Of a stretch of 64,000 nucleotides of DNA, positions 1 through 50,072 are shown piece by piece. The stretch's first letter is position 1. Each line of letters begins with the position of its first letter. A model generated the notes under the pieces. It saw only the letters and a list, made by a program, of their open reading frames with translations, was not told the origin of the DNA and did not search any database. Position numbers and translations under genes: made by a program. The DNA is from Termitomyces sp. T153 (lineage: Eukaryota; Basidiomycota; Agaricomycetes; Agaricales; Lyophyllaceae): contig JACKQL020000029.1 of NCBI GenBank assembly GCA_018296165.2, positions 62,001 to 126,000 on the forward strand. Reading direction: 5' to 3'.

Positions 1-122
1 TAGAATATTGAGGACCTAACCAAACAAAGTGAGGTTGGGTCTGAGATGAAACAAGAGCTACAGGCCCATGCCAAAGACACAGATTTAGCTCATCTATAAT
101 ATATGGGACAACTCCTGGAAAA
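1..122 (+). mobile_element. Helitron 3' end joined to a Helitron 5' start
   Basis: Bases 1-92 match the 3' tail seen at the ends of the Helitrons at 36.5 and 38.6 kb: one unit of the minisatellite containing GAGGTTGGGTCTG, then a hairpin (GAGCTA at 55-60 pairs with TAGCTC at 86-91). Immediately after, 93-122 begins TCTATAATATATGGGACAAC, which resembles a Helitron 5' terminus and is the same start as at 36607. Homology stops at about 122, where Gypsy integrase sequence begins. The junction therefore marks tandem Helitron ends abutting an older retroelement. Confidence 0.6.
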
Positions 123-411
123 GTGGCTGTGATGCTGTCATGGTAGTGTGCACTAGAATCAGGTGCACCATGCTTGTCATCTGACATATAACTACCCAAA
201 GGTAGTTATACCCTTTTGATTCAGGAAACAGGCTTATAAAGTCCATCCCTATTGAATCCCAGGGCTTGACTGGCATGGGCAGGGAATGTAACTTCCCTGA
301 AGGGAGATGATTGCTCCCTTTTGCCCACTGACACAGTTGACATGTGGTACAAAATGTGCAAGCATCTGTGACCACTGTCAGCCACCAATACCAACAAGAA
401 ATGTATTCCAT
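123..411 (-). pseudogene. Gypsy integrase fragment (relic A)
   Basis: The minus-strand reading frame contains the second half of the HHCC zinc-binding module (CxxC within CTTCQLCQWAK), then MPVKPWDSIGMDFISLFPES, the start of the integrase catalytic core with its first acidic residue (IGMDF). It stops matching after the HTTMTAS segment, where the second Asp and the Glu of the DDE triad would follow. The rest of the catalytic core is missing because Helitron sequence abuts it. It cannot encode an active integrase. Confidence 0.8.
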
Positions 412-27975: not shown

Positions 27976-28310
27976 TGAGCTTTTCTGAGAGATAGAGATA
28001 TTGAATGAATGAATGAATGAACTCTGTCTATGTCACTGACAAGCCACAATACAAGGCTCAGAGGTGGGGGTAAAGACAAGGCTCTACTCCAAAAATCATA
28101 AGTACTGTTGGGTGTTGTGGTGTATTGTATCTGTAGCATGTGGTAATAGAACTCTCCTTGCATAGTCTTGTGTGGCTGTTAAATGGCATGATCATGTTGC
28201 AAAATGCTCAGGTGGAACATGAGGTATGGGGTGAAATTATGCTTTGAAGCATAGAATTGTCAATTTCACTTGGAAGAGTTAGAATGTTGAAGACCTAACT
28301 AAATGAAGTG
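27976..28310. other. Left flank of the Helitron array
   Basis: Low-CG sequence with a short (TGAA)n microsatellite (28002-28020). Homology to the 3' part of Helitron H2 begins near 28270 (TTGGAAGAGTTAGAATGTTG matches 38110 with G/A changes). No gene is seen. Confidence 0.4.
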
Positions 28311-28950
28311 AGGTTTGGTCTGGATTTGATTATTGAGTTTAGAATATCAAAGATGTAACAGAGGGGATTATTAAGACATGATCACCACTTCTCAGGTTAC
28401 TTCCTGAAAGAATGAAGTCAAAAGCTTTATTTGATGGAAGAAGATATAGTTTCAATGATAGTAAAGACTTATGTCTGCTGATATAAACAATAATAGGACT
28501 ATAAGCACATTAATTAAGTGGAAAAGCTCTAGTGAGGTTTGATCTGGATTTGATTATTGAGTTTAGAATATCAAAGATGTAACAGAGGGGATTATTAAGA
28601 CATGATCACCACTTCTCATGTTACTTCCTGAAAGAATGAAGTCAAAAGCTTTTTTTGATGGAAGAAGATATAGTTGAAATAATAGTGAAGACTTATGTCT
28701 GCTGACATAAACAATAATAGGACTATAAGCACATTAATTAAGTGGAAAAGCTCCAGTGAGGTTTGGTCTGGATTTGATTATTGAGTTTAGAATATCAAAG
28801 ATGTAACAGAGGGGATTGTTAGGATGTGATCACCACTTCTCATTCTACTTCCTGAAAGAATGAAGTTGAAAGTTTTATTTGACTGAAGATAATACAGTGG
28901 AAATAATAGTACAATGACAGGACTATAATCACATTAATTGAAATACAAAG
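28311..28950 (+). repeat. 224-bp tandem repeat, about 2.9 copies
   Basis: Copies start at 28311, 28535 and 28759 with AGGTTTGGTCTGGATTTGAT (second copy with A for one G). Spacing is exactly 224 bp twice, and the third copy is shortened. Each contains GATGTAACAGAGGGGATT. They belong to the tail of the first Helitron in the array. Confidence 0.85.
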
Positions 28951-29340
28951 GTGAGGTTGGATCTGGATCTCAGCATTGAGTTAACAAAATACAAAGACCT
29001 AACTGAACATAGCGAGGTTGGGTCTGGATCTCAGCATTGAGTTGACAAAATACAAAGACCTAACTGAACATAGCGAGGTTGGGGGGTGGATCTCAGCATT
29101 GAGTTGACAAAATACAAAGACCTGTCTGAACATAGTGAGGTTGGCTCTGGATCTCAGCATTGAGTCAACAAAATACAAAGACCTAACCAAATGTAGTGAG
29201 GTTGGGTCTGGGACTTAGCATTGAATTTGAAATAAAAGGACCTAACTGAATGAAGTGAGGTTGAGTCTGGGACTAAGCATTGAGGAGAATATTGAGGACC
29301 TAACCAAACAAAGTGAGGTTGAGTCTGGGATGAAGCAAGA
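28951..29340 (+). repeat. 58-62-bp minisatellite, about 7 units (left Helitron tail)
   Basis: The GAGGTTGG-type core recurs at 28953, 29014, 29075, 29137, 29198, 29257 and 29315. Units share ATACAAAGACCTAAC and TCTGGATCTCAGCATTGAG. The same family of units ends Helitron H1 at 36160-36567. Confidence 0.85.
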
Positions 29341-29376
29341 GCTACAGGCCTGTGCTGAAGGCATGGACCATAGCTT
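29340..29376 (+). repeat. Terminal hairpin of the upstream Helitron (H0)
   Basis: GAGCTACAGG..., then CTGAAGGCATGG..., then TAGCTT. It corresponds to the perfect GAGCTA/TAGCTC stem at 36568-36605, with one arm weakened by a C-to-T change. The gene-bearing Helitron begins immediately after. Confidence 0.6.
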
Positions 29377-29511
29377 TTATAATATATGCAACGACGGACA
29401 TGGGAATGTGGCTGTGCCTATATATGCGACGATGGACATGGGAATGTGGCTGTGCCTATATATGCGACGACTTTTTGGGATTCTGCTGAAGTAAGCCTGA
29501 CTAATGCTGAC

Positions 29512-29529
29512 CAATTCTTACATAAGAAT
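29512..29529 (+). repeat. 5' subterminal hairpin of Helitron H1
   Basis: AATTCTTA, CA, TAAGAATT: a perfect 8-bp stem. The identical hairpin is at 36704-36721 in H2, the same distance from the 5' end, so it is a conserved part of the leader. Confidence 0.6.
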
Positions 29530-29949
29530 TGCCTTTTAAAGGTGAACATGATACAAGTTGGCTGTTTTTGGCCATTTGAACATGTTTTCTTGAAGAAAAA
29601 TTACAGTAGACAGCTTTAATACATATATGCAATCTTTTGACTATGTGTGAAACATGCCAGATAGTCTGCAGGTGTCAAAAAGGCCAAACGCGATTTAGTG
29701 GACACTGTTTTTCATGCCTCACGCGTTTTTTGACACAATATGACCAAACAATGGGCATTTCTGAGGTTGTGGAAAGGAGGCCACACGACAAAGTATGTTT
29801 CATCACATCTATTGATTGATTGATGTTGACTAACAAGCTTATTAGTAACTCCTTAACCACATTGAGCCATTGATACATTAAATATCTCATCATGCAAGTC
29901 AATTTTAATGGTTTTTGACTGTTAAATTGCTTAACAATGGATATTTCAG

Positions 29950-32900
29950 GCAACCACCCACTACTCCTGAAAGCCAAAGGCAACAAGCTAGGAATCAAAG
30001 GAGACTTGAACAGTTACAAATGATAGATCCTGACAATCATCGAGCAAATAGAAACAATAGATCTTTGGAACAGATCAATACTGTGGTTGTCCCACCACTT
30101 CAATTGGGGCCTGGGGGTATGGGAACTGGGGGTAACAATCAATCTATGGGATCTAGGGGTATGGGAACTGGGGGTAACAATTAATCTATGGGATCTGGGG
30201 ATATAGGATCTGGGGGATTGAGGCTTAATCACCAATCTATAGCCACCACTTCTGGCTCTTCTGGAAGACCTATTAGGCAGTTAGCACCTGCTGATGATCC
30301 ATTCTCTATGGTCATTCCTGAAACTGTTTTACCTGAAGGATGGAATGCCCCTTTACAGAATCCCTTACCTAGATTGGTGCCTCCTCTGCCTGCTCCTATA
30401 CAGAAAAGAGTCAATAGACTCAATCAGCCTATTGCAACTATGGGTATTCCTGAAACTCATCTGCCTGAAGGTTGAAATGCCCCTTTACAGAATGCCTTGC
30501 CTAGGATGGTGCCACTTTTGCCTGTATATGAAAGAGTCAATAGGCTGGGACCAGTCAATCAGCCTGCTATTGCTCAAGCTACTGTGGATATTCCTGAAAC
30601 CCATCTGCCTGAAGGATGGAATGCACCTTTACAGAATCCCTTACCTAGATTGGTGCCCCATCTGCCTGCTCCTATACATGGAAGAGTTATAAAAGCTCCT
30701 GTACCAGAACCTATGACCATAATGATGCCACCTCCCCCTCACACACTAGCTCTATTTCAAGAGCAACAAAGGCAGAAACAGAGGCAACAGGAGCAAGCAC
30801 TAGCAGCCTTGCAAGAGCAACAAAGGCTGAGACATATTGCTCTGGCTGAAGAGCAAAAGAGGCAACAAGAGGAGGCACTAGCAGTACTGCAAGAGCAACA
30901 AAGGCTCAGACAAATTGCTATAGCTGAAGAGCAGGAGAGGCAACAACAAGCATTGGCTATTCTGAGCCAGGAGAGAGAAAGAGAGGAAGAAGAGCAATTT
31001 ATGCCAGAGGTTAGTTTAAGACAGATTTAAATGCTACTTTGACTAATAAGGTTGAACAGCATATAGATTTGAATCCTGAACATAGGCCTTTAAATGCAGC
31101 TATGGCTCAAAGGATTTTTCAAGGCTGGGAACAGCAACATGAAGCTGATCTGGAAGAGGATTTCAATGATTTAGGTCCTCAGAATGATATACCTTCTAAG
31201 GATGACTTGGAATATGTTGATCCTGTTCAACAGAGACCTGCAGAACAATTGGATCCTCCCCTTGATGTGCCATTAGGTCCTCAGGATGACATCCCTTCTG
31301 ATGATGACTTGGAATATGTTGATCCTGTTCAACAGAGACCTGCAGAGCAATTGGATCCTCCCCTTGATGTGCTATTAGGTCCTCAGGATGACATCCCTTC
31401 TGATGATGACTTGGAATATGTTGATCCTGTTCAACAGAGACCTGCAGAAGACTTGGACCCTGCTCCACCCAACCATCCAGCAGGACTACAAAATCCTGCT
31501 GAACAGCCTCCCCTTGAGCTTCCTATGCCAGCACAGCTTGACCCTATTCAGCCTATTCCAAGAGGAAGGCAACCTTACTTGATTGAATATCCTCCACACT
31601 ATCTTGGTCCTATGACTGTCATATGTCCACACTGCCAAGCTCTACATTTTGATGCTGAAAAGCTCACCAAGTCTACTATTTATAATCCAAAATTTGGCAT
31701 GTGCTGCTTACAAGGCCAAGTGAATTTGCCCAGGCTTCAAGATGCTCCAGCAGATTTACTGAACCTGCTTCATGGGCATCATCCTCTCTCTGACACTTTT
31801 AAAACATCAATCCGTCAATACAATGCAGCCTTTGCATTCACATCTCTGGGAGTCAAAATTGATCATGCCATCACCAATGCTCCTGGACCATACAGCTTTA
31901 GGATCAATGGAGAACTACATCATCTGACAGGTGCCTTGCTTCCTATTGAAGGAAATCTGCCTGTATATGCACAGCTCTACTTTCATGATCACAATCAGCA
32001 ATTGGCTTTTCGTCAACAGAACAATCCCAGGCTTGATCCTCAGATAATGGCCTCTTTGCAGGATATGCTTGCTAGAGTCAATCCCTTCATTGGCTTATAC
32101 AAGCAGGCTAGGCAGATTATGGGAGAAGTTCCAGAAGGCCAACCACAAAGGCTTTCTGTCAAGCTTACAGCTGATTTTGGAGATCCTCAATGCTATAATG
32201 ACCCTAATGAACAGGAGGGAGTTGCAGCTGTAATTCCAGGAGATGGCTCAAAAGAGCAATCAAATGATTGTGATATAGTCTTGCACTTGCATGGAGGTCA
32301 ATTGAAGCAGATCAGTCACTTGCACCCATATTACACTCCATTGCATTATACCATCATCTTTCCCACTGGACAGCCTGGATTTCACACCAACATTCGCTCT
32401 CATTTTGGACCACAGAATCAACAAAGATCAGCAAAGGTCACCCAAACAGCATATTATGCATACAGGCTACAGCAAAGGACTTTGGAATTCAATGCACCAT
32501 TACTCTGGAGTGGGAGGCTATTTCAACAATATGTTGTAGATGCATGGGCTTCCACTGAACAAAACAAGTTGAATTGGATTCGACACAATCAGAAAAAGAT
32601 CAGGGCTGAAGTCTATCAGGGAGTAGTGGATGCTGCTGCTGGAGATGAACAAGTCACCCCACAAAGCTGACGTGTTATCCTCCCATCCTCCCATACTGGA
32701 AGTGATCGACAGATGCAGCAATTATTCCAGGACTCTATGGCTATCTGCAGGAATTTTGGAAAACCTGACCTCTTCTTGACTATGACTGCCAATCCAAAGT
32801 GGTCAGAAATTGAAGAAGCTCTCTTGAAGGAACCTGCAGTCAATGGGAAAAGGCAAACAGCTGCTGATTGACCTGATATTGTTGCCAGAGTTTTTGAACT

Positions 32901-35869
32901 CAAGAAAAATGCTGTAGTAAAGGAGATCAAGGAAGGTCTCTTTGGCAACTGTGTGGCTTATGTTCATACCATTGAATTCCAAAAGAGAGGACTTCCACAT
33001 ATGCACATCTTGATCTTTTTCCATTGCCATCACAGGATCAAGGATGCACCTGATGTGGATTCCATTGTTTCTGCTCAGATTCCAGATCCAGTCACTCAGC
33101 CTCAGTTGTATCAGGTATTGGCTTTGTTTGAATCCTGAATTCAGTTACTTATCTTTATGGTCAGGTTGTTACTGCCAACATGGTCCATGGTCCATGTGGA
33201 GCTGCCAAACCCAATGCTAAGTGCATGGTAGATGGCAAATGTTCCAAGAAATACCCAAAGGAATTCCAAGAAGCTACTCAGTATGGAGATAATGGCTATC
33301 CTCAATATGCCAGACCTGACAATGGACGCTTCTTTGAAAAGAATGGTCATCATTATGACAATCAAGATGTTGTTCCATACAATGCTTATCTCTTAGCCAA
33401 GTACAAATGTCACATCAATGTGGAGGTCTGTGCTTCAGTGGAAGCCATCAAGTACATTCACAAGTACATCTACAAAGGCCATGATAGGACAACTTTGGAG
33501 ATTGCTGGAGAGCAGATGGACCAAAGGGATGAAATCAAGGAACACTTGGATGCCAGATACATCTCTGCACCTGAGGCTTGCTGGCACATCTTTGAATTCA
33601 ACATGCATGGAGAGCATCCTCCTGTATATCAATTACCTGTGCATTTAGAGGGCCAACATGAAGTCTACTTTCAGGATAATGAGCCTTTGGAGATGGTAGC
33701 TGCCAGGCCTAATGCAAACAAGACTGCACTCACTGCTTGGTTTGAGGCCAATGCTAGATTCCCTAATAACAACACCACTTATCAGAACTTTCCAATCAAG
33801 TTTGTCTATGAAGCTTCCAAAAGGACCTGGAAGGAGAGGCAGAGAGGAACAGCTATTGGGAGGATGTACTTTGCTTCACCTCAACAGGGAGAAAGGTTCT
33901 ACCTTAGGATGCTCCTGACAGTTGTGACCAATGCAACATCATGGGCTGATCTCAGGACAGTCAATGGCCACACTTATCCTACTTACAAGGAGGCATGCAA
34001 GGCCCTTGGTCTTCTAGAAGATGATGCAGAATGGAGGCAATGTCTTGCTGAAGCTGCTCCAATCCAATCAGGATCAGCTCTCAGACAGCTCTTTTGCACT
34101 ATCCTATTCCACTGTGCTCCTACCACTCCAGAGGCTCTATGGGACAAATTCAAGCACTCCATTTGTGATGATCTTCAACACAGATTGGAGAATATCAGGC
34201 AGTACAGGGACAGAGTCTTTACTGATGAAGATGTCTATGACTATGGCCTTTATCTAATCAATGACAATCTGAAGAATTTTGGCAAGACTCTTCAAGACTT
34301 TCCAAACATGCCAGAACCCCAACAAGTTTGGAATGTGATTCCAGGCAAGTTGGACATTGTATAAAGAGTTGACATTGATACTGATGAAATGATTTCAGGA
34401 AATAGGCTTTTGCAAGAAGAAACAGATTATGATGTTGAGGAGTTGAAGAGGAGGGTGGATGAAAACAAGGCCAGATTTAATGGTGAACAACTGGGGGCCT
34501 TCAATGAAGTTATGGACTCTGTGGACAACAACTTGGGCAAGATGATATTCATTCACAGTGCAGGTGGATGTAGCAAAACATTTGTCTGCAACACTTTGGC
34601 TTCTGCTGTTCAGTCCAATGGAGATGTGGCATTATGTGTAGCATCATCTGGGATTGCTGCCTTATTGCTGGAGGGTGGTAGAACTGCACATTCAAGGTTC
34701 AAAATCCCCATTCCTGCTCTGGATACATCCATTGCCAATATCAAAAGAGGAACTCAGTTATCTCAACTCTTACTCCAGACCAAGGTTGTTATTTGGAATG
34801 AAGTCCCAATGCAACACAAAAATGCCATTGACTCTGTGGATCGAGGGTTCAGAGACATCCTGGAGAAGGATGTTCCTTTTGGTGGAGTGACTGTGCTTTT
34901 GGAGGAGATTTTAGGCAAACTCTCCCAGTTATCCAACAAGGACTCAGGCAGCAGATGATTGCTGCTTCACTCAAAAGGGGAAGACTTTGGGATCAGATTC
35001 AAGTCCACTACTTGGTTCAAAACATGAGATTGGATCAGACTCCTGATAACATTGCTCGTGCAGCTTGGTTATTGGATGTTGGTGCTGGAAAAAACCTTGG
35101 GCCTGGAGAAACAGTACAACTTCCAGAAACCATGATCTGTGATGACAATTCTGTCACTGGATTGATCTCTTCCACTTATCCTCATATTGATCACCATCAA
35201 GATGATCAGTATTATCTGGACCATACCATCCTTTCTGGCAAGAACTCTGATGTAGAGGATATCAACTCTGAAGTTCTGCAGAAATGTCCAGGAGAAGAGA
35301 AAATCTTGCAGAATGCAGACTCTATTATATCTGATGATGGGAATCCTAATGGCCTTGGATTGTATCCAATGGAATACCTCAACTCTCTCAGAGCCAGCAG
35401 TTTGCCTTTGGCTAAATTGGCTTTGAAGATTGGTGTTCCTGTCATGCTGCTCAGGAATCTTGATACAACCAAAGGACTTTGCAATGGGACAAGAATGATT
35501 GTCACTCACATCAGCACCAGAGTTCTCAGATGTAGGATCATCAGTGGAGATGCCAAGTTTGCAGGATCAATTGTTTTGATTCCAAGAATCAACATGGATG
35601 TGTCTGAAGAAGATTTGCCAATTCCATACAGGAGACAATTCCCAGTTCAATTGGCCTTTGCCATGACTATCAACAAGTCTCAGGGTCAATCAGTCAAGCA
35701 TGTTGGATTGGACCTTTGATCAGGAGTTTTTTCGCATGGCCAACTTTATGTTGCACTCTCTTGGTGCACATCAGGAGATCGTATCAAAGTCATCTTGGAC
35801 CCAGAACACACATCAAGAAAGACTGCAAATATTGTCTATCAGGAAATCCTGAATGGTTTACAAATGTAA
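29950..35869 (+). pseudogene. Helitron Rep-helicase (RepHel) pseudogene
   Basis: In order: a Gln/Pro-rich N-terminus with repeated IPETHLPEGWNAPL units and a Gln-rich coiled coil (30740-31009); a 41-nt intron (31010-31050); a CxxC element (CPHCQALHF, near 31626); the Rep domain with the HUH motif HMHIL (near 33001); a 50-nt intron (33115-33164); the Tyr motif KYIHKYIYKG; then a Pif1-like helicase with Walker A, GGDFRQ, NGTRM and TINKSQGQS. The family nicks, joins and unwinds DNA for rolling-circle transposition. In-frame stops lie at 30182, 30473, 32668, 32869, 34362 and 35717, and a frameshift lies near 34891-34900. Walker A reads GGCSKT and Walker B reads IWNE, both altered. It cannot be active. 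The start codon and first exon were not found. Confidence 0.9.
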
Positions 35870-36159
35870 AAAAGTGTGAGTTTTGTTGGACTCAAGCAAG
35901 AAATTGCTAACTTCTATGAACTTCAGCACCTAATGTCTATAGCTGGACCATGTAGTATAGATATTCTTAATGGTTTACAAATGTAAGTGTGACAGTTTAA
36001 ATAATTGGTTGGTTAGTACTAACTTTTATAATTTTCAGCATCTCTAATATATACCAGTGGACATTGTAGTATTTTGTTAATAATGTAATATAGATACATG
36101 ATTGGTTTATAGATGAAATCTCAGTGTATTGAATTGTAAGAGAAAAGCAACACTTGGTT
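35870..36159. other. 3' non-coding part of Helitron H1
   Basis: AT-rich sequence between the pseudogene stop (35867-35869) and the minisatellite. GAATGGTTTACAAATGTAA occurs twice (near 35850 and 35968). No ORF is seen. Confidence 0.5.
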
Positions 36160-36567
36160 AACAAAATACAAAGACCTAACTGAATGAAGTGAGGTTGGGT
36201 CTGGGATGAAGCACTGAGTTAGAAATACAAGGACCTAACCGAACAAAGTGAGGTTGGGTCTGGAATGAAGCATTGAGTTAGAAATACAAAGACCTAACCA
36301 AACGAAGTGAGGTTGGGTCTGGGATGAAGCATTGAGTTAGAAATACAAGGACCTAACCAAACGAAGTGAGGTTGGGTCTGGGATGAAGCACTGAGTTAGA
36401 AATACAAAGACCTAACCGAACAAAGTGAGGTTGGGTCTGGGATAAAGCATTGAGTTAGAAATACAAAGACCTAACCGAACAAAGTGAGGTTGGGTCTGGG
36501 ATGAAGCATTGAGTAGAATATCGAGGACCTAACCGAACGAAGTGAGGTTGGGTCTGGGATGAAGCAA
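36160..36567 (+). repeat. 59-bp minisatellite, about 6.5 units
   Basis: The core AGTGAGGTTGGGTCTGGGAT recurs at 59-bp spacing (GAGGTT at 36191, 36250, 36309 and onward). Units also share ATTGAGTTAGAAATACAA. It forms the 3' subterminal region of H1. Confidence 0.9.
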
Positions 36568-36605
36568 GAGCTACAGGCCCATGCCGAAGGCACGGGGCAT
36601 AGCTC
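36568..36605 (+). repeat. Terminal hairpin at the H1/H2 junction
   Basis: GAGCTA (36568-36573) pairs with TAGCTC (36600-36605). Inside, TGCC-GAA-GGCA forms a second stem, and GCCC can face GGGC. The sequence immediately following is TCTATAATATATGGG, the next element's 5' end. Confidence 0.75.
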
Positions 36606-36606
36606 G

Positions 36607-38595
36607 TCTATAATATATGGGACAACTCCTGGGAAAGTGGCTGTGCCTATATATGCAATGACTTTTTTGGATTCTGCTGAGGTAAGCCTGACTAATGCTG
36701 ACCAATTCTTACATAAGAATTGCCTTCTAGGGTAGTTGGCTCTTTATTCACACTTTGAATAAGGAAAAAAATGGCATAGCAGACAGCTTTGGTTGATAAC
36801 ATGAATTTATTGTTTCCCTGAGCCATCAAGATTGATATTTCAGGCAATTTTCAGCCTTTTTCAGGCATTACTTATGTGAAATGTACTGTCTTTTAATGTA
36901 CCTCTTCAAGCAACACTTCTGGCTGTTCTTTGAGGATAAAGCATGTTCCATGCATGTATTTCTTATCAATAAAAGTTCAGAACAATGAATTTTTGTGATC
37001 AAAATGGCCAAAGAAATGGCATAATATGTTTCTTTGACTCTTAAAAGTTTCTACTTATTCTTTGAAAAGGAGAATAGTTGCCCTGTGTATATTCCTAGGC
37101 AACTATGGTTCCTGAGGGACTTTGAAAGTTTTATGACATACAGTATGTTTTGACTATAAATCTGACTTGAATTTGATAGCTGATATCCCCTAACTTGGAA
37201 TGTGTATTCTGTCATGTTAGGTGGTACCAACATTGAATTGTAAATTCAAAGTCTTAACCAAACAAAGTGAGGCTATACTTGGACTGTGCTGATAGCTGTA
37301 TGCTAGCTCCTGATTTCAAGGTATATGGTATAGACTTGAAAGTATGAATTTGTATAGTTTTACAATAATCAGTTCCTATATCTTAGAATCAACTTACTCC
37401 TGATCATCTCCAACTTTGCCTGCTCTCAATAGATATTTGACTACATTATAACAGCCTCTGAAAAAGGATGGTGGATTTAATTTATTATGCTACTATTGGT
37501 GAAGAGAGCATTGAAAATTACTTTTAGATGGAAAAAGCTTCAGAAGGCAGTATTAATATAGAATGTGTAAAGTTGATGGTCCTCTGTTAAGGGACTGGAA
37601 CAGGAGGTTTTTTCCTCACTACTATGAAATATATGTATGTTTTGATAGATTGGCTTGCTGATAGCTGTAGGCTAGGTCCTGTTTCTGAGGATCCACAGGG
37701 TTTATGATTTGAAGGTGTATGGTTTGTGATTAGATGATTGTATGTCAGATATATTGAGTTGAAGAAAACAGATGAGTGATGTGTAATAAATCTTGATTAG
37801 ATAGAGTATTGAAAAGGGATTATTAAAGCATTGTCACCACTTTAATAAGAATCAAGTCAAAGGTTTGATTGCTAAGTGTTAGTACCACTTAGTGATACCA
37901 TAAATGAGATTGTAGATATCTCATTACCCAGGCTACTTTCTCTAATTTCTTTCTCTTTAGTGTAGGTTAGTGTCCAAAAATTGTCCAACATGATCTTCAA
38001 AGTGTATGAGTAATAAGGGAACAGAAGGTGGTGGAGACTTTGATTCATTGATGATTCTAAATTTTCAAGTATATTAAAGATGATCTATGATCTATTGAAT
38101 GATAATCAGTTGGAAGAGTTGGAATATTGAAAACCTAACCAAGTGAAGTGAGGTTTGGGCTGGATTTCAGCATTATGTTAAAAATAATGGAATACTTATG
38201 AAGGAAGATTCATTTGACTGAGTGAAATATAATTAAAATCATAGTAAAGAGTGACATTTACTGACATTGACAATGACAGGAATATCAACACATTGATTTG
38301 AAAAAGAAAGACCAAAGTCAGCATAGTGAAAGAGATGAGTGGAAAAGCTCCATTAATATGACAATGTTGATTACTTTATTGAGGAACTCTTATCAATAAC
38401 ATGAAAGACAAACTGAGGTTGAGTTTGGATCTCAGCATTGAGTTGGCAAAATACAACACCTAACTGAACATAGTGAGGTTGGGTCTGAGACTAAGCATTG
38501 AGTAGAATATTGAGGACCTAACCAAATGAAGTGAGGTTGGGTCTGGGATGAAGCAAGAGCTACAGGCTCATGCCAAAGGCATGGACTGTAGCTTG
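36607..38595 (+). mobile_element. Helitron H2 (non-autonomous)
   Basis: It starts TCTATAATATATGGG at 36607 and ends with the GAGCTA...TAGCTT hairpin (38557-38594). The first 240 bp follow H1's leader, including the AATTCTTA hairpin (36704-36721), CAGACAGCTTT and GATATTTCAGGCAA. No helicase sequence follows. The last 500 bp share the minisatellite-like core and the GGGGATTATTAA unit with the H0 tail. Length is 1,989 bp. Confidence 0.6.
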
Positions 38596-38698
38596 TTTTT
38601 GTTTGATTGGGCCAAGATTTGGGTGCCTTGGCACTTACATAATATCATTACATAAACATGCTGTCTATTACTGTTGCCTATCTTATTACAAAAATGTA
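38596..38698. other. Flank between Helitron H2 and the pogo element
   Basis: About 100 bp of AT-rich sequence with no recognised feature. It ends in TA, the target of the next element. Confidence 0.5.
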
Positions 38699-38987: not shown

Positions 38988-39729
38988 TGTCAGGTTCTGC
39001 TGACTATGGGGGCTCAGCTACACTGGGCTCTTTCTACAGTGCACAGACCACCCCCTACATGTGACTTTTGGTTCCATACTTTCCAGCCCCTTATTCATAA
39101 CTGTTATTCTAATTCCCCCTTTTGGTATGCCTGAATCAGTGCCACAGGCTAGTTCCTTGTGCCATCATTCCTCCTTTGCATTCTTAGCTTCCATTTGCCC
39201 CATTTATCTCTTTCTCCTTTGTATTTCTTCCATTCATCTTTTTCCTCCCATTCATTCCATTTATCTTCCTTGATTCATTTCATATTCTTCCCCATTCAGG
39301 TTCTTTCCCATTTGGGTTCTTCCATTCATCTTCCTTTCTCTTCCCTTCATTCCATTCATTTCATATTCTTCCATTCATCTTCCTTTCCCTTCTCTTCATT
39401 CCATTCTTTCTCATTCATTCCCCCTTTACCTCCTTTCAGTCAACATTCCAATCTGGTTATTCTTAGATTAGATTTAGATCTTGCCAGAATTGATGCCACT
39501 CAGATGCTTTTTGCTAGTCCCATGCTTCCCCTCCCATTACAGTGATTGGACTATTATTGAGTGTATAGTCTAGTCTAGTCCTTGTCCTATCCTGTTCTGT
39601 ATTTCCTCTAGTGTATTTTAAAAGGATAATGTTGCTGGAACTTGTTTTACTAGGAGGCTTACAGTTTTCAGCCTTAGTAAATGGTTGTTTTGACTTCTGG
39701 TGTTTTATTATGTTCTCAATGGTGTGACA
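38988..39729. mobile_element. Possible family A-related LTR remnant
   Basis: Starts TGTCAGGTTCTGCTGACT followed by GGGGGCTCAGCTACACTGGG, close to reversed family A ends, and a TGTGACA end occurs at 39723-39729. The interior differs (long pyrimidine tract, repeated CATTCATTCC-type words at 39240-39420), and no target duplication was found. Confidence 0.3.
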
Positions 39730-39856: not shown

Positions 39857-41189
39857 TCAGGACTGATGGAGTGACAGCAGGCTCCAAGTCAGTAGAAGAT
39901 GGATTAAGAAGTGCATTGTGCAGGATACCAGACTTTTTCCAACATTTCCTAATAGTTGTTGTGTCCACCTCCTTCTACATAGATCAGCCATATGCAAGGC
40001 CTTGAGAATGTTAAGATCATAAATTTCAGGAGGGGGGATGTCACTGTCATAGCGATGAATCACACGATTGACAAAGCAGGCACAATAATGAGCTTTAAAA
40101 CAGCAAATAATACTGCCATTAGCTGGCTGAACATGAGCTGTGAGATTTGGGACAAAGTTTTCTTCACAAATGTTTGTAAGGCCCTCAGGAGTAATGTGAC
40201 CACTGAAATTATCTTGCAACAGAAGGATATAGCACCCCTCATGCTGCAATTTGGCATCCCAATCATGGATCCATTCTTGATAAGCACTGTTGTCATCCAG
40301 GCTTTTGCATTACTCCTCCAGTAAAAGCCAAGTTGAGCTCTAGTCTTTTGTTGGAAGGCTCGTGGACATTCAGCCTTTCCAATAATTAGTGGTGGCAGTT
40401 TCTCAGTCCCAGAAGCATTCATTGTGAATGCAAAAGTCAACTGTTTCTTGTCACCTTTTACACCAGACATCCATTTTGTCATGAGGTCATGGTCAGGTGG
40501 CATTCTGTGTTGAATATGTAAGTACATTTCATCCAATTTCAAAACTGCACTTATGCCCAAAAGAGTCCAGTCTTGTCCATATTGAAAATGTCTTTGAGTT
40601 GGTACTGATGTCTGGCAATCAGCTCTTGAACATGTTTACACTTGCAATCAACATCTTGAGGATCTGCAGAACCTGCCTCTCCATGATGCTTAAAGCTTCT
40701 TAAGCCACATTGCTTCTTAAAGCAATCCAACCATCCTTTGCTACAGGTAATCCTCTCATCAGTTGGCACACCCACAAGATCTGCAAAGCATTCCCATTTC
40801 TTCCTGAGAATTTCACTGTGAAGTTCAATTTCATCCGACATGGCCTTGTTAACCCATAATTCAAGCATCTCGTTAACTTCTGGGTGCTCTGTAAGCTTTT
40901 CTCACTTTGCATTACCAGTCTGTCCTCTTGCCAATGCCTCAGCATATTGAGCCCAATACTTCTCCTCATTTTTGAGCCAGTCTGATATCAATGGTTGCTT
41001 CAAGCAAAGATTAGGATATATTTTATTCCAATGTGCCACCATTTTGCTTTGACTGGATCTGTTTGCATGGTGCCAATCAAGAATCTCGACCCTCTGCCTC
41101 AGAGTTGCATTCTCCTTCTTCGTGAAGACAGGTTCTTTCTTATTCTTCTCTTCATGTGGTTTTGTATTGCAATTTTCAGGCTCTGGCAT
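39857..41189 (-). pseudogene. pogo-type transposase pseudogene
   Basis: On the minus strand the N-terminal part (41189-40902) and a CENP-B-like helix-turn-helix part (40868-40551) are in one frame but split by a TGA where relatives have Arg. Then come NMDKTGLFW (first DDE Asp), MPPDHDLMTKWMSG, PLIIGKAECPRAF and AWMTTVL. After a frameshift near 40240 come ILLLQDNFSGH (second Asp) and LTAHVQPANGSII, where functional relatives have an Asp in the QPxDAGII position, here Asn. The break between LFWA and MPPD may be a decayed intron. The transposase is dead. Confidence 0.85.
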
Positions 41190-43664: not shown

Positions 43665-46175
43665 TCAGTGAGTGGGGGATGAGGCGGCGGCTGAGGTACT
43701 AGCAACTGGTGTGGTGGAGTAGTTGTCTCGCAGCTCCGAGTAGGACCTCTTTGGCAGAGAAGTCAAATGGGAGGTAATAGTGTATGAGAAGTTCCGACGA
43801 GCATGAAATTGTTTGGTTCGTTGTACCTGCTGGCTGGAAGGAGCACGCCAGGCTTGGATAGCATCCTCAACAGTTTGTTTATCGACTTCGCCCTGTTTAG
43901 AAATGAACCCAAGGGTTACGAGGAGGTCGAGACAAGGGTCCACATAGGAGCTTGGAAGGTAGCCGTTAGGGAAAGGCTTATTCACCCTGGACCAGCTGTG
44001 ATCCTGTTCGTCATATTGAGAGAGACGGTAAGGGCACTCAGTTTCGGGGTTGGCCAAGTTGAGCACTTCTGAAAAGACAGTGTAGCCGATAGGCATAGGA
44101 AGTCGAGGGTTGCCGCGGGTCTGGCGAACCTCCAGGTCAAATTCCAGGTAGAGCTGTATCTGAGAGGGATGAAGGCTGATCCTACCGCCTGGGTTCTCAG
44201 GGTCATGGAGGATGACCATGCAGGTGATGGGATCAATAGTGAGGAATGGATGGTGACGAGGTCGGTTAGGCCCATTGCTGGAGGACCCGCGGTTGCCATA
44301 GGGGTTAGGGTGACCCATTAGCAGGGTGTAAGTGGTGATTGGGTAGTCGATGGCCAAAAGACGTAAGATTATAGCAGAGGCAGGTGGCCCGAGAATGGGA
44401 GGGGGCTCTTGAATCCCCTGGTCCATGTCGGCTCCTTTAAGTGTCTGAAAATTTATCTGTCCTAAAAATACTTGCGGGTCATCGAGAGGAGGTTTGCCGG
44501 TTCCTGCCTTGATCAACTCCTCAATTTTTTCAAGCCCCAGTAATTCCAGGTAGGGGACTAATAAGTCTAACTCCTTGACCTGTTCGTAGGTCATCCATGA
44601 TTTGTCCCCAGCCTTCCATAGGACTTCAAACATAGCATTGGTTTTGGTCCCATGGTGCGCCACAATACGCTCGGCAGCCCATTCATTTAACTCAGGCTCA
44701 ACAATCTGCTTGTCCAGGCGGCCTGGGAATAGTCGGTCATCATTTGGTTTATGGATTCGCAGTAGGGCTGCATGGAATACATCATGTATTCCTCTCTGTT
44801 TCATGTTACGAGATATTGCTACTTGGAAGGAATTGTTGCCAAAGTCCTCAGTGATCTGGTACGGTCCTTCATATCTCGGGATTAGCTTGCGTGGGAATCC
44901 CTTAGGATAGTTGAAGTTTTTTGTTGATATGTAAACCATATCTCCCATTATAAATGGTGCTGGTTGATGGCAACAATTGGCATTTCGACTTTGTTTTACA
45001 CGTGCTGCCAGGATACAATCATGTGCTGCAATCAAAGCAAGCTTGAGGCGCTGTGCAAACACTCTTACTCCTGGGAACTCATCTGTACGTGCATTATTCC
45101 ATATCATCGGTCTTGGTAGCCTTCCTGAATTCAAGAAGAACAGAGAATACCCTGTGCTGTCAGATCTTGCTGAGTTAATGGCAAACTCAATAGCTGGAAG
45201 TTTTGCCACCCAATCTTTATGCTTGTCGCCTATGCATTGTCTAATCATCTGCACCATGGTTCTGTTAGCGCGTTCAGTAGACCCATCAGATTGAGGGTGA
45301 TATGCCGATGACATCCTTAACTGGGTTCCTATCAGTTCATGTAGGTGTGTCCAGAAGGTACTAGTGAAATAAGAGTCATGGTCGCTAACGATTGCCCTTG
45401 GAAGTCCATGATATTTATATACTTCATCAAATATGAGTTCAGCGACTTGTCGAGCAGTATAGTTTGTTCTACTAGGCACTAAGTGTACCATGGCTGTGAG
45501 TAAGTCAATGATTACAGTAATCGAATCATACGATCCATTTCTATCCTTAGATTCAGGTAGCGGCCCCACGAAGTCTATTCCCATTACTTCCCATGGCTGT
45601 GAAGGTACAGTCAGGGGTTGTAATAATCCGTAAGGTTTCTGATTAGATGGTTTATTTTGACGGCACGTGGAACAAGTATCACAGTATTTTTGAACATCAT
45701 GTGTCATTGTTTTCCACCAGACCTGATCATGCAAGTAAAGCAATGTCTTCCTGTGTCCCAAGTGGGCTAGTAAAGAATGAGCTTCCGCAATTATTATTTC
45801 CCGAATGTTACGTCCTCGTACAATGATTGCTGGTATGCACAACAGTTTTCTTCCTTCTGACTTCAAGTATACCATCTTGTCCTGAGTTACTTCATAGTTT
45901 TTGAATGCTTTTGGGTTTTCGATGATCTTTGCAAATAGCTTGTCTTCCTTGTATCGGCCCTTCAGTGATGCTGCTAGATCAATCGGATCCATTCCAGCAT
46001 TGAGCAGCTCTTCTAAGGTTAGTGGGGTGAGGCTAGCATATTCTTTCAGCAACTGCTGTGATTTCAATGCTAATGTTCTGTCGTATGACTGCTCCAATGG
46101 GTCTGTGTACCTTTCATTTAAGTTTAGCTCTGCTGGCCTGCCTGTATTAGGTAACGGCTTCTTTTGAGCTGGCAC
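43665..46175 (-). CDS. Gypsy pol, integrase and C-terminal extension (836 codons)
   Basis: Same frame as the preceding pol ORF, separated from it only by the TGA at 46176-46178, so it probably has no start codon of its own. It has an HHCC zinc module (HLGHRKTLLYLHD...CDTCSTC, about residues 136-172) and the integrase catalytic core with Asp near 199 (GIDFVGPL), Asp near 263 (VSDHDSYFTS) and Glu near 300 (DGSTERANRTM). A GPY-like LIPRYEGPYQI follows, then a chromodomain-like AAERIVAHHG...FEVLWKAGDKSWMTYEQV. About 300 further residues of unknown function follow (HPFLTIDPITCMVILHDPEN and onward). Integrase inserts the cDNA copy, and chromodomains bias insertion toward marked chromatin. Confidence 0.9.
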   Translation of the reverse strand: MPAQKKPLPNTGRPAELNLNERYTDPLEQSYDRTLALKSQQLLKEYASLTPLTLEELLNAGMDPIDLAASLKGRYKEDKLFAKIIENPKAFKNYEVTQDKMVYLKSEGRKLLCIPAIIVRGRNIREIIIAEAHSLLAHLGHRKTLLYLHDQVWWKTMTHDVQKYCDTCSTCRQNKPSNQKPYGLLQPLTVPSQPWEVMGIDFVGPLPESKDRNGSYDSITVIIDLLTAMVHLVPSRTNYTARQVAELIFDEVYKYHGLPRAIVSDHDSYFTSTFWTHLHELIGTQLRMSSAYHPQSDGSTERANRTMVQMIRQCIGDKHKDWVAKLPAIEFAINSARSDSTGYSLFFLNSGRLPRPMIWNNARTDEFPGVRVFAQRLKLALIAAHDCILAARVKQSRNANCCHQPAPFIMGDMVYISTKNFNYPKGFPRKLIPRYEGPYQITEDFGNNSFQVAISRNMKQRGIHDVFHAALLRIHKPNDDRLFPGRLDKQIVEPELNEWAAERIVAHHGTKTNAMFEVLWKAGDKSWMTYEQVKELDLLVPYLELLGLEKIEELIKAGTGKPPLDDPQVFLGQINFQTLKGADMDQGIQEPPPILGPPASAIILRLLAIDYPITTYTLLMGHPNPYGNRGSSSNGPNRPRHHPFLTIDPITCMVILHDPENPGGRISLHPSQIQLYLEFDLEVRQTRGNPRLPMPIGYTVFSEVLNLANPETECPYRLSQYDEQDHSWSRVNKPFPNGYLPSSYVDPCLDLLVTLGFISKQGEVDKQTVEDAIQAWRAPSSQQVQRTKQFHARRNFSYTITSHLTSLPKRSYSELRDNYSTTPVASTSAAASSPTH

Positions 46176-49100
46176 TCAAATAGTGAGTCTTCCCTTATTG
46201 CTGTCATCCAAGCTTGTTGAGGGTTCAGTGTGGATAGCTGGGCTACCTTCCCCCCCCTCATTTTGCTCCCTTGGGCCTCTTAGGACAAAATGTGGTGTCA
46301 TTCTAGCTGCAAACTCTTTTGAGGTTTCTGCCCTTCCAGACTCAGCAGGCTCTGTTACCTTCTGGCGATAAGCCCTCTTTTTCTTAGCCCCTGCTTCGCC
46401 CACTGCTTCTCCTTGAGTCTTTTCAGCCACAGACACGCTCTCGCCCTCCATCCCAACAAGTACAGGCATTGATACCAACTGCTTGTTTATCCCATCATTA
46501 TCTATCACATCAAAGTACGTATATTCGCTCCTGGCTCTAACTGTCCCTGGATGCTCATTAGAGTACAGGCGAGATAATGCATCAGAAAGTATATTTTCTG
46601 CTCCTGGGACGTAAATCACCACAAAGTCAAACTCCGAAATCTTTTCGACCCATCGAGCCTGCCTCCCAGACAAGTTTTTCTGCTCTGCCAGGTGAATCAA
46701 ACCTTTGTGGTCAGTGAACCACCTAAACTGCACTCCCTGTAGGATATCCCGGTGTCGCAGCATTGTCTCAACCCCTGCCAGCATCTCAATCTCGTGTACT
46801 GGATAGTTCTGCTGTGCGGAGTTCAACTTAGCCGAGAAGAATGCTGCAACATCTGCTGTTTTCCAGTCCTCTCCCTGGCTGACAACGCCAGCAATCCTGG
46901 TCACACATCCATCTGTCACCATGTTAATTGGGGGTGACTGCAGCCCATAATTAAGTGGTTTTCTGTGGTGCTCCCTGCATTTAGTAGCTAGATGTTTTAC
47001 GTCTTCAAATGCCCGCTGATGTGAGTATTCCCAGCGAAATGGAACAGTATCTCCTGTCAGTCCATGCAGCACTCCCATGGGCACCCTTACTTGGTCAATA
47101 TCATCCGCTAGGTAACCCGCGGCGCCCAGAAACCCCCTCAGTAAGTCTCGGTTTGTGGGTACTTTCCATCTAACTAATGCATCGACCTTATCAGGGTCCA
47201 TTCTAATTCCCTCATCGTCCACAACACGACCCAGTATCTTCATCTCCCTACACAAAAATTGTAATTTCCGCTCACTGAGGTACAGTCGCTCCCTTTTTAG
47301 GACATCTAGAACTAATTTGACGTGCTTGACATGGTCTTCCAACGTTTCTGAGTACACCACAATATCATCAAGATATACGTCCATAAACTGCCCCAGGTAT
47401 GCAGCAAATAAGTAATTCATCAAAGCCTGGTATGTTGCAGGTGCGTTGCAATCACCTTGTTGGACTACACGACTCACAATATTCCCATCTGGTGTGGTCA
47501 TTGCAGTACGTATAACATGCTCTGGATTGACCCTGATCTGTTCATAAGCATCCTGTCCATCGATTATAGATCGATATTTAGCACGCGCTGCTCGTCTCAG
47601 GATTCCCTCCATGTCTGGCAGGGGGGATGACTTTTTGTAGGTGTTGGCATTTCGTGCCCTCAAATCACTGACATTTCGCAGGCGTGGTTGCCCATTATCC
47701 TGTCCTGGCTTCTTCAAGAACATCATTGGGGAAGCATTTCCCACCGCAGTAACTTCCCAGCGTCCCGACTTTATGTAGGCCGCCCTTTTTTCATTCCACT
47801 GCGGTTTCAATGCCTCTGGGCACCGAGATGGTCGCCAGGGGTATATCTTCTTCTCATCTATTAACGGGATATCATGGTTGATTGCCCTTAATGGCGGTAA
47901 CGGTGTGTCGCCTGCTGACCTACACAAGGGGGCTGCATACTCACGAAGTTCCTTTCTGATTAATTCAAGATTATCCTGATACAGCCCCAGGGCCCGGGAC
48001 GACAGCCGAGCCACCTCTGTACCCTCAACCATTGATACCGCCATTGTACTGCCGATTATTACGCGTGATGGGTTTAGACCAAAGATCACCTTGTGCTGAT
48101 ATATCCAGGGGGTACCCAGTATGACATCGTACCCCTGTAAGTTCATTACATCGAAATACCTTTCCTCCGACACTTGTTGATAAATGAACAGAGCCGTAGC
48201 CCCATAGTTAATCTTAGACCTCGACCCCTGCACTGCCAGTTGCACGGGCACAGGTTCTGATAATTCAATTTTCTTTAGTTTCAGTTGTTCCACGGTGGTG
48301 GTTGAAACAAAATCTCCTAGTGAACCTGAGTCTACCAGCGCGCGCACTGGGTGCCCATTCAGTTTGATAACTATTACCAATGGTTTTGGGATGGCTCGAC
48401 TCACATTCCTTTTTCTAGCGTTATTCCTCTGGATTGCGGGGTAAGTTCCCCGTTCCACTTGCTGGCCATTCAATTCCAACATCGACCAAGTCTCAACCCT
48501 GTGGTTCCTTCTGTCTTTCTGGGAAAGCCTCTCCCTGTAACTGGTTTGTCGTAGCAATTTTTGTAACAATTTCTGGGGTGTCTCAATCACCTCTTCCTTT
48601 TCAGACATTGGCGTCCTCATAATCTTCACTGTGAGCCTGGGAAACCTCCCCGTGCTCCTTTTCAGATCCTTCCCTTCAGAAGCCACGTATATCCTGGCCA
48701 CCCTTAACAAATACCATCTACATATGTCAAACAATGGATTATGCAGATGGTACTCTGCGATATCCGTAACAAAATGAAGCAGTCGATCCAGTATAGCCCA
48801 CCTTCCTGTATCCAGCCTCGTCAGCTCAAACCTCTTCCTGTGGTTTAGGGATAATGTCCACTCATCCTCGAGATACGGTGCTCCCAGCGCAAGGACCCTT
48901 TCGGCATTCCAGGCCCAGGTATCCTTGGATAAGGTCGTTTCATAACAAGACAGTCGTGGTATCAAGATTCCGCTTCGGGCGCTACATTTGGCTGCGTACC
49001 AGCTCCCTGCCGAGAACCCACGCTGGCCCACTACTTCAGCTGGTAATATGAAGTCCTGGTCCCATATCTGGTCCCAGAGACTCAATTTACCTCCCTCGAT

Positions 49101-50072
49101 CTCATCAGCTATGAAACGGCGACCCTTTAACTGTAAGGCATTGGATGGATCACCGCGGTAAAGTTGGAGAGACTCTAGCAGGTATTCTAGCTTACGGGCT
49201 GGAGCGCTCCCCAGTCGGTGGGGTCTGCCCAATTTGGCTTCCGCTTCCCAGAGTAGCTCAACCTTTTTTCCTGGGCTCTTTACTTTAAATCCGTAGGTGT
49301 CCCGCCCGTAGTCCTGTTCGGCTGACAATCCTATCATATTACAGTGATCGTCCTCTGTGTGCGAGCACCTAGTCTCCTCGCAAGCAGCCCTCCCTCCCAT
49401 GTCGGGGTGTATTCGTCGGGTTGTCTGGCCACTGTCTTTGTCGCCAGTCTCATCCGGTCCCGTACCAGTGATTTCGTGACCTGCAGGTTCGTCTGCATAT
49501 CCAGGGGCAATCATGCCCACGTAGACTCCGGCCGTAGTCTCCCCAAGGGCTTCCTCTCGTAGCCTCTCCGTTCCCTGCAGGTCAACCTTTACACTGTAGG
49601 ATTTCAACCCCGGGGGCTTACCCGGGTTGGGCGATGATGCTGACTTCCCCTGGAGGCAGTTGCGGGACATGTGGCCTGTGTTGCCACATTTAAAACACTT
49701 ATCTTGCGCGCGGTATTCCGCTTCTTCTTCTTTAGACAGTCGTTTCCTCTCCCCCATTTTCCTGAATCTAGGTACCTCTGACTTAGGCTTCCTATGGTCA
49801 GAGGGGCGTGATGTCCCTCCTTTACCAGAGTAAGCTGGTAGCGTGTTGGTCTTCTTTCCATATTCTGTTGGAGACCTGCTACGCCGATTCCCGCTCGAGT
49901 ATTCTGACTGCCTCTTGGCATACTGAGATTTGTTTTGTCTTTCAGATCGTCCCCGTCGGTGGCCATGGTGGGACGCAGGCCCGTCTCCAAATTCTAGATC
50001 GATGGACTCCGCCATCTCAATGAACTCGGCCTTGGCCACCACCTTCTTCCATTTGGATGTTTCGGGGTTCAT
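46176..50072 (-). CDS. Gypsy pol: NC zinc knuckle, protease, RT, RNase H (1,298 aa)
   Basis: Starts at an ATG overlapping the gag stop (ATGA). Residues 126-139 are a CCHC knuckle (CFKCGNTGHMSRNC). About 300 residues follow that I do not recognise (LWEAEAKLGRPHRLGSAPAR, then LQLKGRRFIADEIEGGKLSL). The protease has ALVDSGSLGDFVS near 580 and YDVILGTPWIYQH. Reverse transcriptase has YLDDIVVYSE near 899. RNase H has MVTDGCVTR, HEIEMLAG, FTDHKGL near 1119 and LSDALSRL. All main catalytic residues appear intact. The ORF ends at TGA (46176-46178) and the frame continues into integrase. These enzymes process the polyprotein and copy the RNA genome into DNA. Confidence 0.92.
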   Translation of the reverse strand: MNPETSKWKKVVAKAEFIEMAESIDLEFGDGPASHHGHRRGRSERQNKSQYAKRQSEYSSGNRRSRSPTEYGKKTNTLPAYSGKGGTSRPSDHRKPKSEVPRFRKMGERKRLSKEEEAEYRAQDKCFKCGNTGHMSRNCLQGKSASSPNPGKPPGLKSYSVKVDLQGTERLREEALGETTAGVYVGMIAPGYADEPAGHEITGTGPDETGDKDSGQTTRRIHPDMGGRAACEETRCSHTEDDHCNMIGLSAEQDYGRDTYGFKVKSPGKKVELLWEAEAKLGRPHRLGSAPARKLEYLLESLQLYRGDPSNALQLKGRRFIADEIEGGKLSLWDQIWDQDFILPAEVVGQRGFSAGSWYAAKCSARSGILIPRLSCYETTLSKDTWAWNAERVLALGAPYLEDEWTLSLNHRKRFELTRLDTGRWAILDRLLHFVTDIAEYHLHNPLFDICRWYLLRVARIYVASEGKDLKRSTGRFPRLTVKIMRTPMSEKEEVIETPQKLLQKLLRQTSYRERLSQKDRRNHRVETWSMLELNGQQVERGTYPAIQRNNARKRNVSRAIPKPLVIVIKLNGHPVRALVDSGSLGDFVSTTTVEQLKLKKIELSEPVPVQLAVQGSRSKINYGATALFIYQQVSEERYFDVMNLQGYDVILGTPWIYQHKVIFGLNPSRVIIGSTMAVSMVEGTEVARLSSRALGLYQDNLELIRKELREYAAPLCRSAGDTPLPPLRAINHDIPLIDEKKIYPWRPSRCPEALKPQWNEKRAAYIKSGRWEVTAVGNASPMMFLKKPGQDNGQPRLRNVSDLRARNANTYKKSSPLPDMEGILRRAARAKYRSIIDGQDAYEQIRVNPEHVIRTAMTTPDGNIVSRVVQQGDCNAPATYQALMNYLFAAYLGQFMDVYLDDIVVYSETLEDHVKHVKLVLDVLKRERLYLSERKLQFLCREMKILGRVVDDEGIRMDPDKVDALVRWKVPTNRDLLRGFLGAAGYLADDIDQVRVPMGVLHGLTGDTVPFRWEYSHQRAFEDVKHLATKCREHHRKPLNYGLQSPPINMVTDGCVTRIAGVVSQGEDWKTADVAAFFSAKLNSAQQNYPVHEIEMLAGVETMLRHRDILQGVQFRWFTDHKGLIHLAEQKNLSGRQARWVEKISEFDFVVIYVPGAENILSDALSRLYSNEHPGTVRARSEYTYFDVIDNDGINKQLVSMPVLVGMEGESVSVAEKTQGEAVGEAGAKKKRAYRQKVTEPAESGRAETSKEFAARMTPHFVLRGPREQNEGGEGSPAIHTEPSTSLDDSNKGRLTI

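Follow-up and report, generated by a model that had tools for sequence, protein, structure and literature searches.

A mushroom Helitron family with a non-canonical 3′ end and its end-to-end arrays

How do Helitrons come to lie end to end, with one element beginning at the very base that follows the last base of another? This question is raised by a stretch of Termitomyces DNA of 64,000 nucleotides (hereafter the window; C29:62001-126000 of a 72.4-Mb genome in 307 contigs), which contains a portion of an array formed by members of one Helitron family placed end to end. Two of the models weighed here for the Termitomyces arrays, read-through and insertion next to a resident element, were proposed by Du 2008 for maize and, in the available part of that paper, the choice between them is left undecided for a single pair (PMC2267711). 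In the present genome, joints are numerous, single copies and a recurrent empty site are available for comparison, and two tail subtypes are joined at different rates, which makes the joining question testable with numbers. The answer could also account for the formation of composite elements and satellite-like arrays by Helitrons.

A preliminary description, made from the letters of this DNA alone, had proposed a head-to-tail array of three Helitrons with exact ends: a tail-only H0, a gene-bearing H1 of 7.2 kb and an H2 of 2.0 kb that carries no gene. This array is real, as is confirmed by its joints, hairpins, solo ends and empty sites, and the proposed layout is borne out as well. All of its parts lie on the plus strand. 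H0 is present as a 3′ part only (28307..29375; TRF and BLAST), which comprises 224-bp repeats (28307-28911), an array of ~61/59-bp repeats (28951-29337) and a decayed terminal hairpin (29339-29375). H1, which was delimited by sequence and Pfam matches, is a Helitron of 7,229 bp with a broken RepHel gene (29378..36606), and it ends in a 59-bp subterminal repeat array of 6.8 copies (36164..36566; TRF), a terminal hairpin and a last base G (36568..36606). H2 (36607..38595) is a non-autonomous Helitron of 1,989 bp whose first base directly follows H1 and in which no open reading frame of at least 150 amino acids is listed. Its terminal hairpin (38557..38595; −14.4 kcal/mol, z −5.9) has the end CTTG, and the next base is the T of the flank. 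Other copies exhibit 76-90% identity over the matched part among the 40 of 409 candidates that were scored.

The joint between H1 and H2 (36606|36607) is exact and reads TAGCTCG|TCTATAATATATGGG, such that H1 ends with its hairpin plus CTCG. This hairpin (36568-36605) folds at −12.5 kcal/mol versus a shuffle mean of −4.96, with 0/200 shuffles as good, and a unit of the H1 array (36459-36517) likewise carries a hairpin that beats 199/200 shuffles. The H0/H1 joint near 29377 had been called eroded. Indeed, comparison with intact joints at other loci indicates that two bases have been lost (29376..29378) from what is otherwise the same joint as that of H1 and H2. The H0 terminal hairpin at this eroded joint folds no better than shuffles (70/200 as good), and the same is true of the hairpin of an H0 array unit (38/200 as good). 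Across the family, units start with TCTATA, and the 3′ end is a hairpin plus CTCG or decayed forms thereof. The same order of parts was also said to recur at position 93, where a tail does adjoin a head. Bases 1..92 (+) are a Helitron tail end, consisting of the last repeat unit and hairpin and truncated by the window edge (sequence; 91% BLAST identity to the H1 tail over 80 bp), and bases 93..131 (+) are the head, or 5′ end, of another family member (97% BLAST identity to the H2 head over 39 bp). However, the head similarity ends at 131. This end (131-132) is abrupt, and the sequence after 131 may be a later insertion.

The RepHel gene of H1 is spread over four frame pieces on the plus strand. 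The first (31039..32670) carries a Helitron_like_N domain (PF14214; Pfam E 3.6e-12), and its best match is a Termitomyces sp. J132 protein with 92% identity over 78% of the query. The second (33180..34364) was recognized by its translation, contains KYIHKYIYKGHD and has no Pfam match. The third (34389..34958) and fourth (34955..35719) carry a PIF1 helicase domain (PF05970; E 7.9e-45) and a Pif1 2B domain (Pif1_2B, PF21530; E 8.2e-21), respectively. Because Helitron_like_N, PIF1 and Pif1 2B reside in separate open frames, the gene is broken. KYIHKYIYKGHD is a candidate for the two-tyrosine (Y2) motif of Rep, which it resembles, and GLPHMHIL, which can be read in the H1 DNA, is a candidate HUH motif.

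Ends of this kind are abundant throughout the genome. A tail pattern yields 475 matches and a head pattern 166, whereas the reversed control yields 0 in each case, and therefore the end patterns do not reflect chance. Both solo and joined ends are present among 30 loci chosen by the tail pattern and 30 chosen by the head pattern. When 16 upstream bases are included, the head pattern matches at 188 places (reversed control, 0). Among the 100 heads listed, 49 directly follow a tail, although this pattern omits heads having G at −16, such that solo heads are somewhat undercounted. A second tail pattern gives 331 matches (reversed control, 1), and 41 of 100 listed tails run directly into a head; an earlier regular expression had counted 38, and the revised figure reflects a fuller head list with one doubtful case dropped. 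The next base is T after 59 of the 62 listed tails scored as non-joint by the earlier expression, four of the 62 being joints by the fuller head list.

Places picked by other means also include joints. Among places picked by the Rep gene, 17 of 40 listed were examined, with most places already covered by loci left out; 16 of the 17 have a tail, and 7 of these 16 run into a head, one of which is decayed. Of the places picked by an H2-like body (16 of 40 scored), 5 have an exact joint, 8 have a solo end, 1 has a tail that abuts an A|T within a head, and 2 are unclassed; joints are undercounted in this sample because known ones had been left out. With ~40-50% of listed ends joined, the earlier opinion that such a readable tandem stretch is uncommon does not hold in this genome. 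Furthermore, A|T sites within heads are hit far less often than the exact 5′ end, given that the 41 joined tails per 100 listed compare with only one recognized by eye at such a site (L019). In L019 and L095, tails adjoin an internal A|T of the head rather than its start, and these are rare nested insertions.

An empty site is provided by the repeat AGTTCTCTRTSAATAA, which has 465 matches at ≤1 mismatch (reversed control, 6). Of the 73 rows displayed with their letters, 72 have it uninterrupted, mostly as TTCAGACAAGTGTGGCC, and the empty site reads AATAA|TTCAGAC. Allowing ≤2 mismatches, 24 tails end at the right half of this repeat and 19 heads begin at its left half. When these ends are paired by contig and strand, 12 loci result, spanning 1,277 to 12,560 bp, with a head first and a tail last between the repeat halves, and 12 right ends and 7 left ends stay unpaired. 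This position in the repeat is a recurrent insertion site for the Helitron family, and a single copy has a host A on its left and a host T on its right. Three of the 12 bracketed loci hold a known internal joint (C140, corresponding to L107; C21, by a full-length match through the joint; and C4, corresponding to L059), and thus in three cases an array is enclosed by the two halves of a single A|T site. The repeat itself looks like a putative LTR, to judge from a polypurine run upstream in L055 and L058. No empty site was found for H2 among the 40 places scored of 1641 candidates; apart from the window itself, none of the 40 includes bases 1-385 of the flank that starts at 38596.

These data also bear on a reading in which the hairpin and TCTATAATA form an internal motif of one longer element. 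The preliminary description had looked for support to other tandem copies and to single copies with the same ends, both of which are present genome-wide, and for refutation to homology running straight through 36606/36607. Such homology does occur, in that full-length matches to the 221-bp query are found at 32 of the 40 best places, and this much agrees with the internal-motif reading. However, the ends are not internal. Homology passes through this point because tandem joints recur, and the termini are evident from heads and tails that occur solo beside unrelated sequence and from a repeat that is uninterrupted elsewhere and whose two halves flank precisely these ends at 12 loci. We therefore reject the internal-motif reading as highly improbable.

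The family is a Helitron family with a non-canonical 3′ end (CTYR, with the hairpin one base from the end). It is placed among Helitrons on the basis of RepHel, which combines Helitron_like_N with a PIF1-type helicase (PF14214, PF05970, PF21530), and of A|T insertion without target duplication, which is apparent from the empty site, from both filled halves, and from the bases that flank non-joint heads and tails (A before 44/51 and T after 59/62). As in Helitron1, the 5′ end starts with TC. Its 3′ ends, however, are mostly CTCG, CTTG and CTCA rather than CTRR, and in H1 and L059 a single base separates the stem from the terminus, rather than 10-12 nt. Membership in Helitron2/Helentron was considered and rejected, because none of five elements has asymmetric terminal inverted repeats; the longest exact inverted match between head and tail is 5-6 bp, which is no more than in shuffles. 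The target is A|T and not the TT of Helentrons.

Several known systems offer parallels. The canonical Helitron1 Helraiser/Helibat, as described in the available part of PMC5876387, shares RepHel-type domains, a 5′ TC, a 3′ hairpin and A/T insertion without duplication, and the joint of the present family resembles that of Helraiser transposon circles. Helraiser differs in having CTRR where we find CTCG, CTTG or CTCA, and a hairpin 10-12 bases from the end where we find one base. According to the same partial text, Helraiser circles contain a precise joint of the two ends, and cleavage of this joint is proposed when the circle serves as donor (PMC5876387), which suggests that a genomic tail/head joint could be a natural substrate. 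HELPO2 of Pleurotus ostreatus is likewise a mushroom Helitron with AT insertion, a hairpin and a CTTG end, but the hairpin abuts the end in our family, and the word "tandem" is absent from the main text of PMC4289320. The non-canonical Helitrons of Fusarium are also fungal, with evidence of joined-end circles and a proposal of self-insertion, and one tandem of three Helitrons is reported in Metarhizium (available part of PMC5148889). The Fusarium elements are, however, of the Helitron2 type, with the asymmetric inverted repeats that none of our five elements has. In maize, the accessible text of Du 2008 presents two unlike Helitrons that directly abut at a G/T joint, a single case compared to the large share of joined ends and the arrays of up to 3-5 units found here (PMC2267711). 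A literature search, which had most subscription journals outside its reach, returned no recognized account of this Helitron family.

The bases at the joints bear on how these arrays could have formed. Joint heads are preceded by G in 39 cases and A in 10, whereas the other 51 heads are preceded by A in 44 cases and by another base in 7 (p 2e-11). The last base of the tail is similar in joints (G28/A10) and in the rest (G42/A15 of 62). The G before joint heads makes it doubtful that elements simply inserted at an ordinary A|T behind a tail ending in G, and this is rejected as a general rule since non-joint heads so consistently follow A. By eye, at least four of the seven non-A exceptions, and others, look like tail remnants. 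This G does not argue against insertion before a resident element at a host A|TC, which is canonical and is one of the models in the available part of Du 2008 (PMC2267711).

The identity of the neighbors is also informative. Arrays of 3-5 elements are present in the genome, and two to four successive exact joints occur in each of L069-L074 and L076-L077, which were picked since matches clustered there. After 4 of 53 joints were dropped for a short upstream part, the 49 classed joints include 19 Rep/H2, 11 Rep/Rep, 10 H2/Rep, 2 H2/H2 (one array) and 7 others, although these counts are biased because resemblance to the window partly guided the choice of loci. Unlike neighbors (Rep/H2 or H2/Rep) therefore make up 29/49, and H1 and H2 themselves are different element types. 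Rolling-circle read-through or multi-round replication, wherein a RepHel complex passes the 3′ hairpin and continues to copy, such that dimers or composites are inserted in one event, would produce the exact joints without a host base and the three arrays that are each flanked by the two halves of a single A|T site. Its expectation that neighbors are copies of one element fits L075-L077, but neither the window nor the joints with unlike neighbors. Among 33 Rep 3′ segments, two being the same places fetched twice, the like neighbors of L076 (99.6%) and L077 (98.8%) are mutual nearest relatives, and those of L075, an array with a 3.06-kb period unit at 95.5% identity, are close (97.8-98.6%). These are three of the five loci with at least two Rep 3′ segments, and 4/5 of their within-locus pairs rank in the top 3% of 528 pairs. 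The like neighbors in L011 and L072 are not close relatives. Elsewhere, Rep 3′ segments ~8 kb apart in L016 and L069 (C10, about 170.6 and 162.2 kb) are identical over the aligned part, hinting at a recent local duplication.

An unlike pair common to L009 and L017 can be viewed in two ways. A shared pair is what read-through would leave, but identity is 99.7% on the upstream side of the joint (1,379 bp) and 96.4% on the downstream side (1,754 bp), and the outer ends closest to the pair are not the same. Co-movement of Rep/H2 pairs was rejected, because the similarities upstream and downstream are weakly congruent (Mantel rho 0.31, p 0.02, for 12 loci; odds ratio 1.4, p 0.03, in a pair table of 47 loci whose pairs are not independent).

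Further evidence comes from CpG decay. Counts are 0/12 in the H0 array, 7/14 in the H1 array and 0/6 in H2 (H1 versus H0 plus H2 at 0/18, p 0.001). Thus, H1 looks younger than H0 and H2, which suggests that the window array grew stepwise rather than in a single round of replication. Unequal decay in several arrays, including that of the window, is contrary to read-through. Among 21 neighbor pairs, the upstream value is greater in 8, the downstream value in 8, and the two are equal in 5, and with no direction in these ages one-directional growth is unsupported. The values of neighbors do correlate (Spearman 0.57), and therefore shared age or shared methylation also acts.

Tails also fall into subtypes, defined by the letters after AAGGCAYRG, that differ in how often they are joined. 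GGC-type tails are joined in 30/52 cases versus 9/45 for the ACC type (p 0.0002), and when both CpGs are intact the values are 14/26 versus 0/12 (p 0.001), although one of these 12 ACC-type tails is a joint by an earlier, looser rule. Within the ACC type, the difference between CpG-intact (0/12) and decayed (9/33) tails is weak (p 0.09). Plain read-through predicts like neighbors and apparently no subtype effect, and so it fits L075-L077 but not most joints; the unjoined CpG-intact ACC-type tails likewise speak against it. We consider read-through a possible but rather doubtful origin for the arrays. The preliminary description was correct in seeing Helitrons, exact ends and a tandem array, but its appeal to read-through is not supported as the main mechanism, because H1 and H2 differ in type and in CpG decay and mixed neighbors are common.

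Homologous recombination could also have shaped the arrays, if circles or other copies cross over with residents via shared heads and 59-bp arrays and thereby add or swap units behind fixed joints. Unit 3 of L069 and unit 1 of L072 are mosaics, in that the core has 4 differences in about 1,470 columns, whereas the ends diverge, at 9 of the 32 leading columns and across much of the final ~300 bp, and the two have different neighbors on both sides. The occurrence of several head types on one body subfamily and the lack of direction in age order also agree with recombination. However, it does not alone create the first joint. Moreover, the window has a decayed H0 tail to the left of H1 and a less decayed H1 tail to the right, which is the opposite of what a circle crossover in the tail array would give. 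Recombination as the principal cause therefore seems unlikely.

The account that we favor, albeit tentatively and from sequence comparisons, is that copies were joined at the ends of resident Helitrons and later reshuffled by recombination. New copies would join at the termini of copies already in place, and the simplest target would be the A|TC site, where RepHel makes the nick that initiates transposition. Alternatively, the target might be an existing tail/head joint, which is structured like a Helitron circle joint. If the donor's own new copy rejoins, like neighbors would result, and a different copy would yield unlike neighbors; homologous recombination via shared heads and 59-bp arrays might then reshuffle the cores. 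Joining at resident ends would account for both like and unlike neighbors, and recombination for the mosaics and the absent age order. Some observations run against end joining. Growth at the 5′ A|T alone predicts that the leftmost unit is youngest, yet neighbor ages have no direction. Likewise, the closely related like neighbors of L075-L077 are as rolling-circle repeats or local duplication would give, and the unlike pair shared by L009 and L017 is as joint movement would give. Perhaps resident ends, and above all circle-like tail/head joints, are even the preferred target of RepHel, such that the family is self-homing, its arrays grow by positive feedback, and the preference is set by the 3′ hairpin subtype (the GGC type joins, the ACC type hardly). 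This extension is more speculative, and we regard it as somewhat improbable.

Additional repeats lie to the right of H2. The flank enters another repeat family at 39028-39395, for which 67 matches are reported, most from query base 433 or later. An open reading frame on the minus strand (40060-40560) presumably resembles a pogo-type transposase. Farther along, three long adjacent open frames of 836, 1298 and 600 amino acids occupy 43665-51871 on the minus strand, and we take these to resemble the gag-pol of an LTR retrotransposon with integrase.
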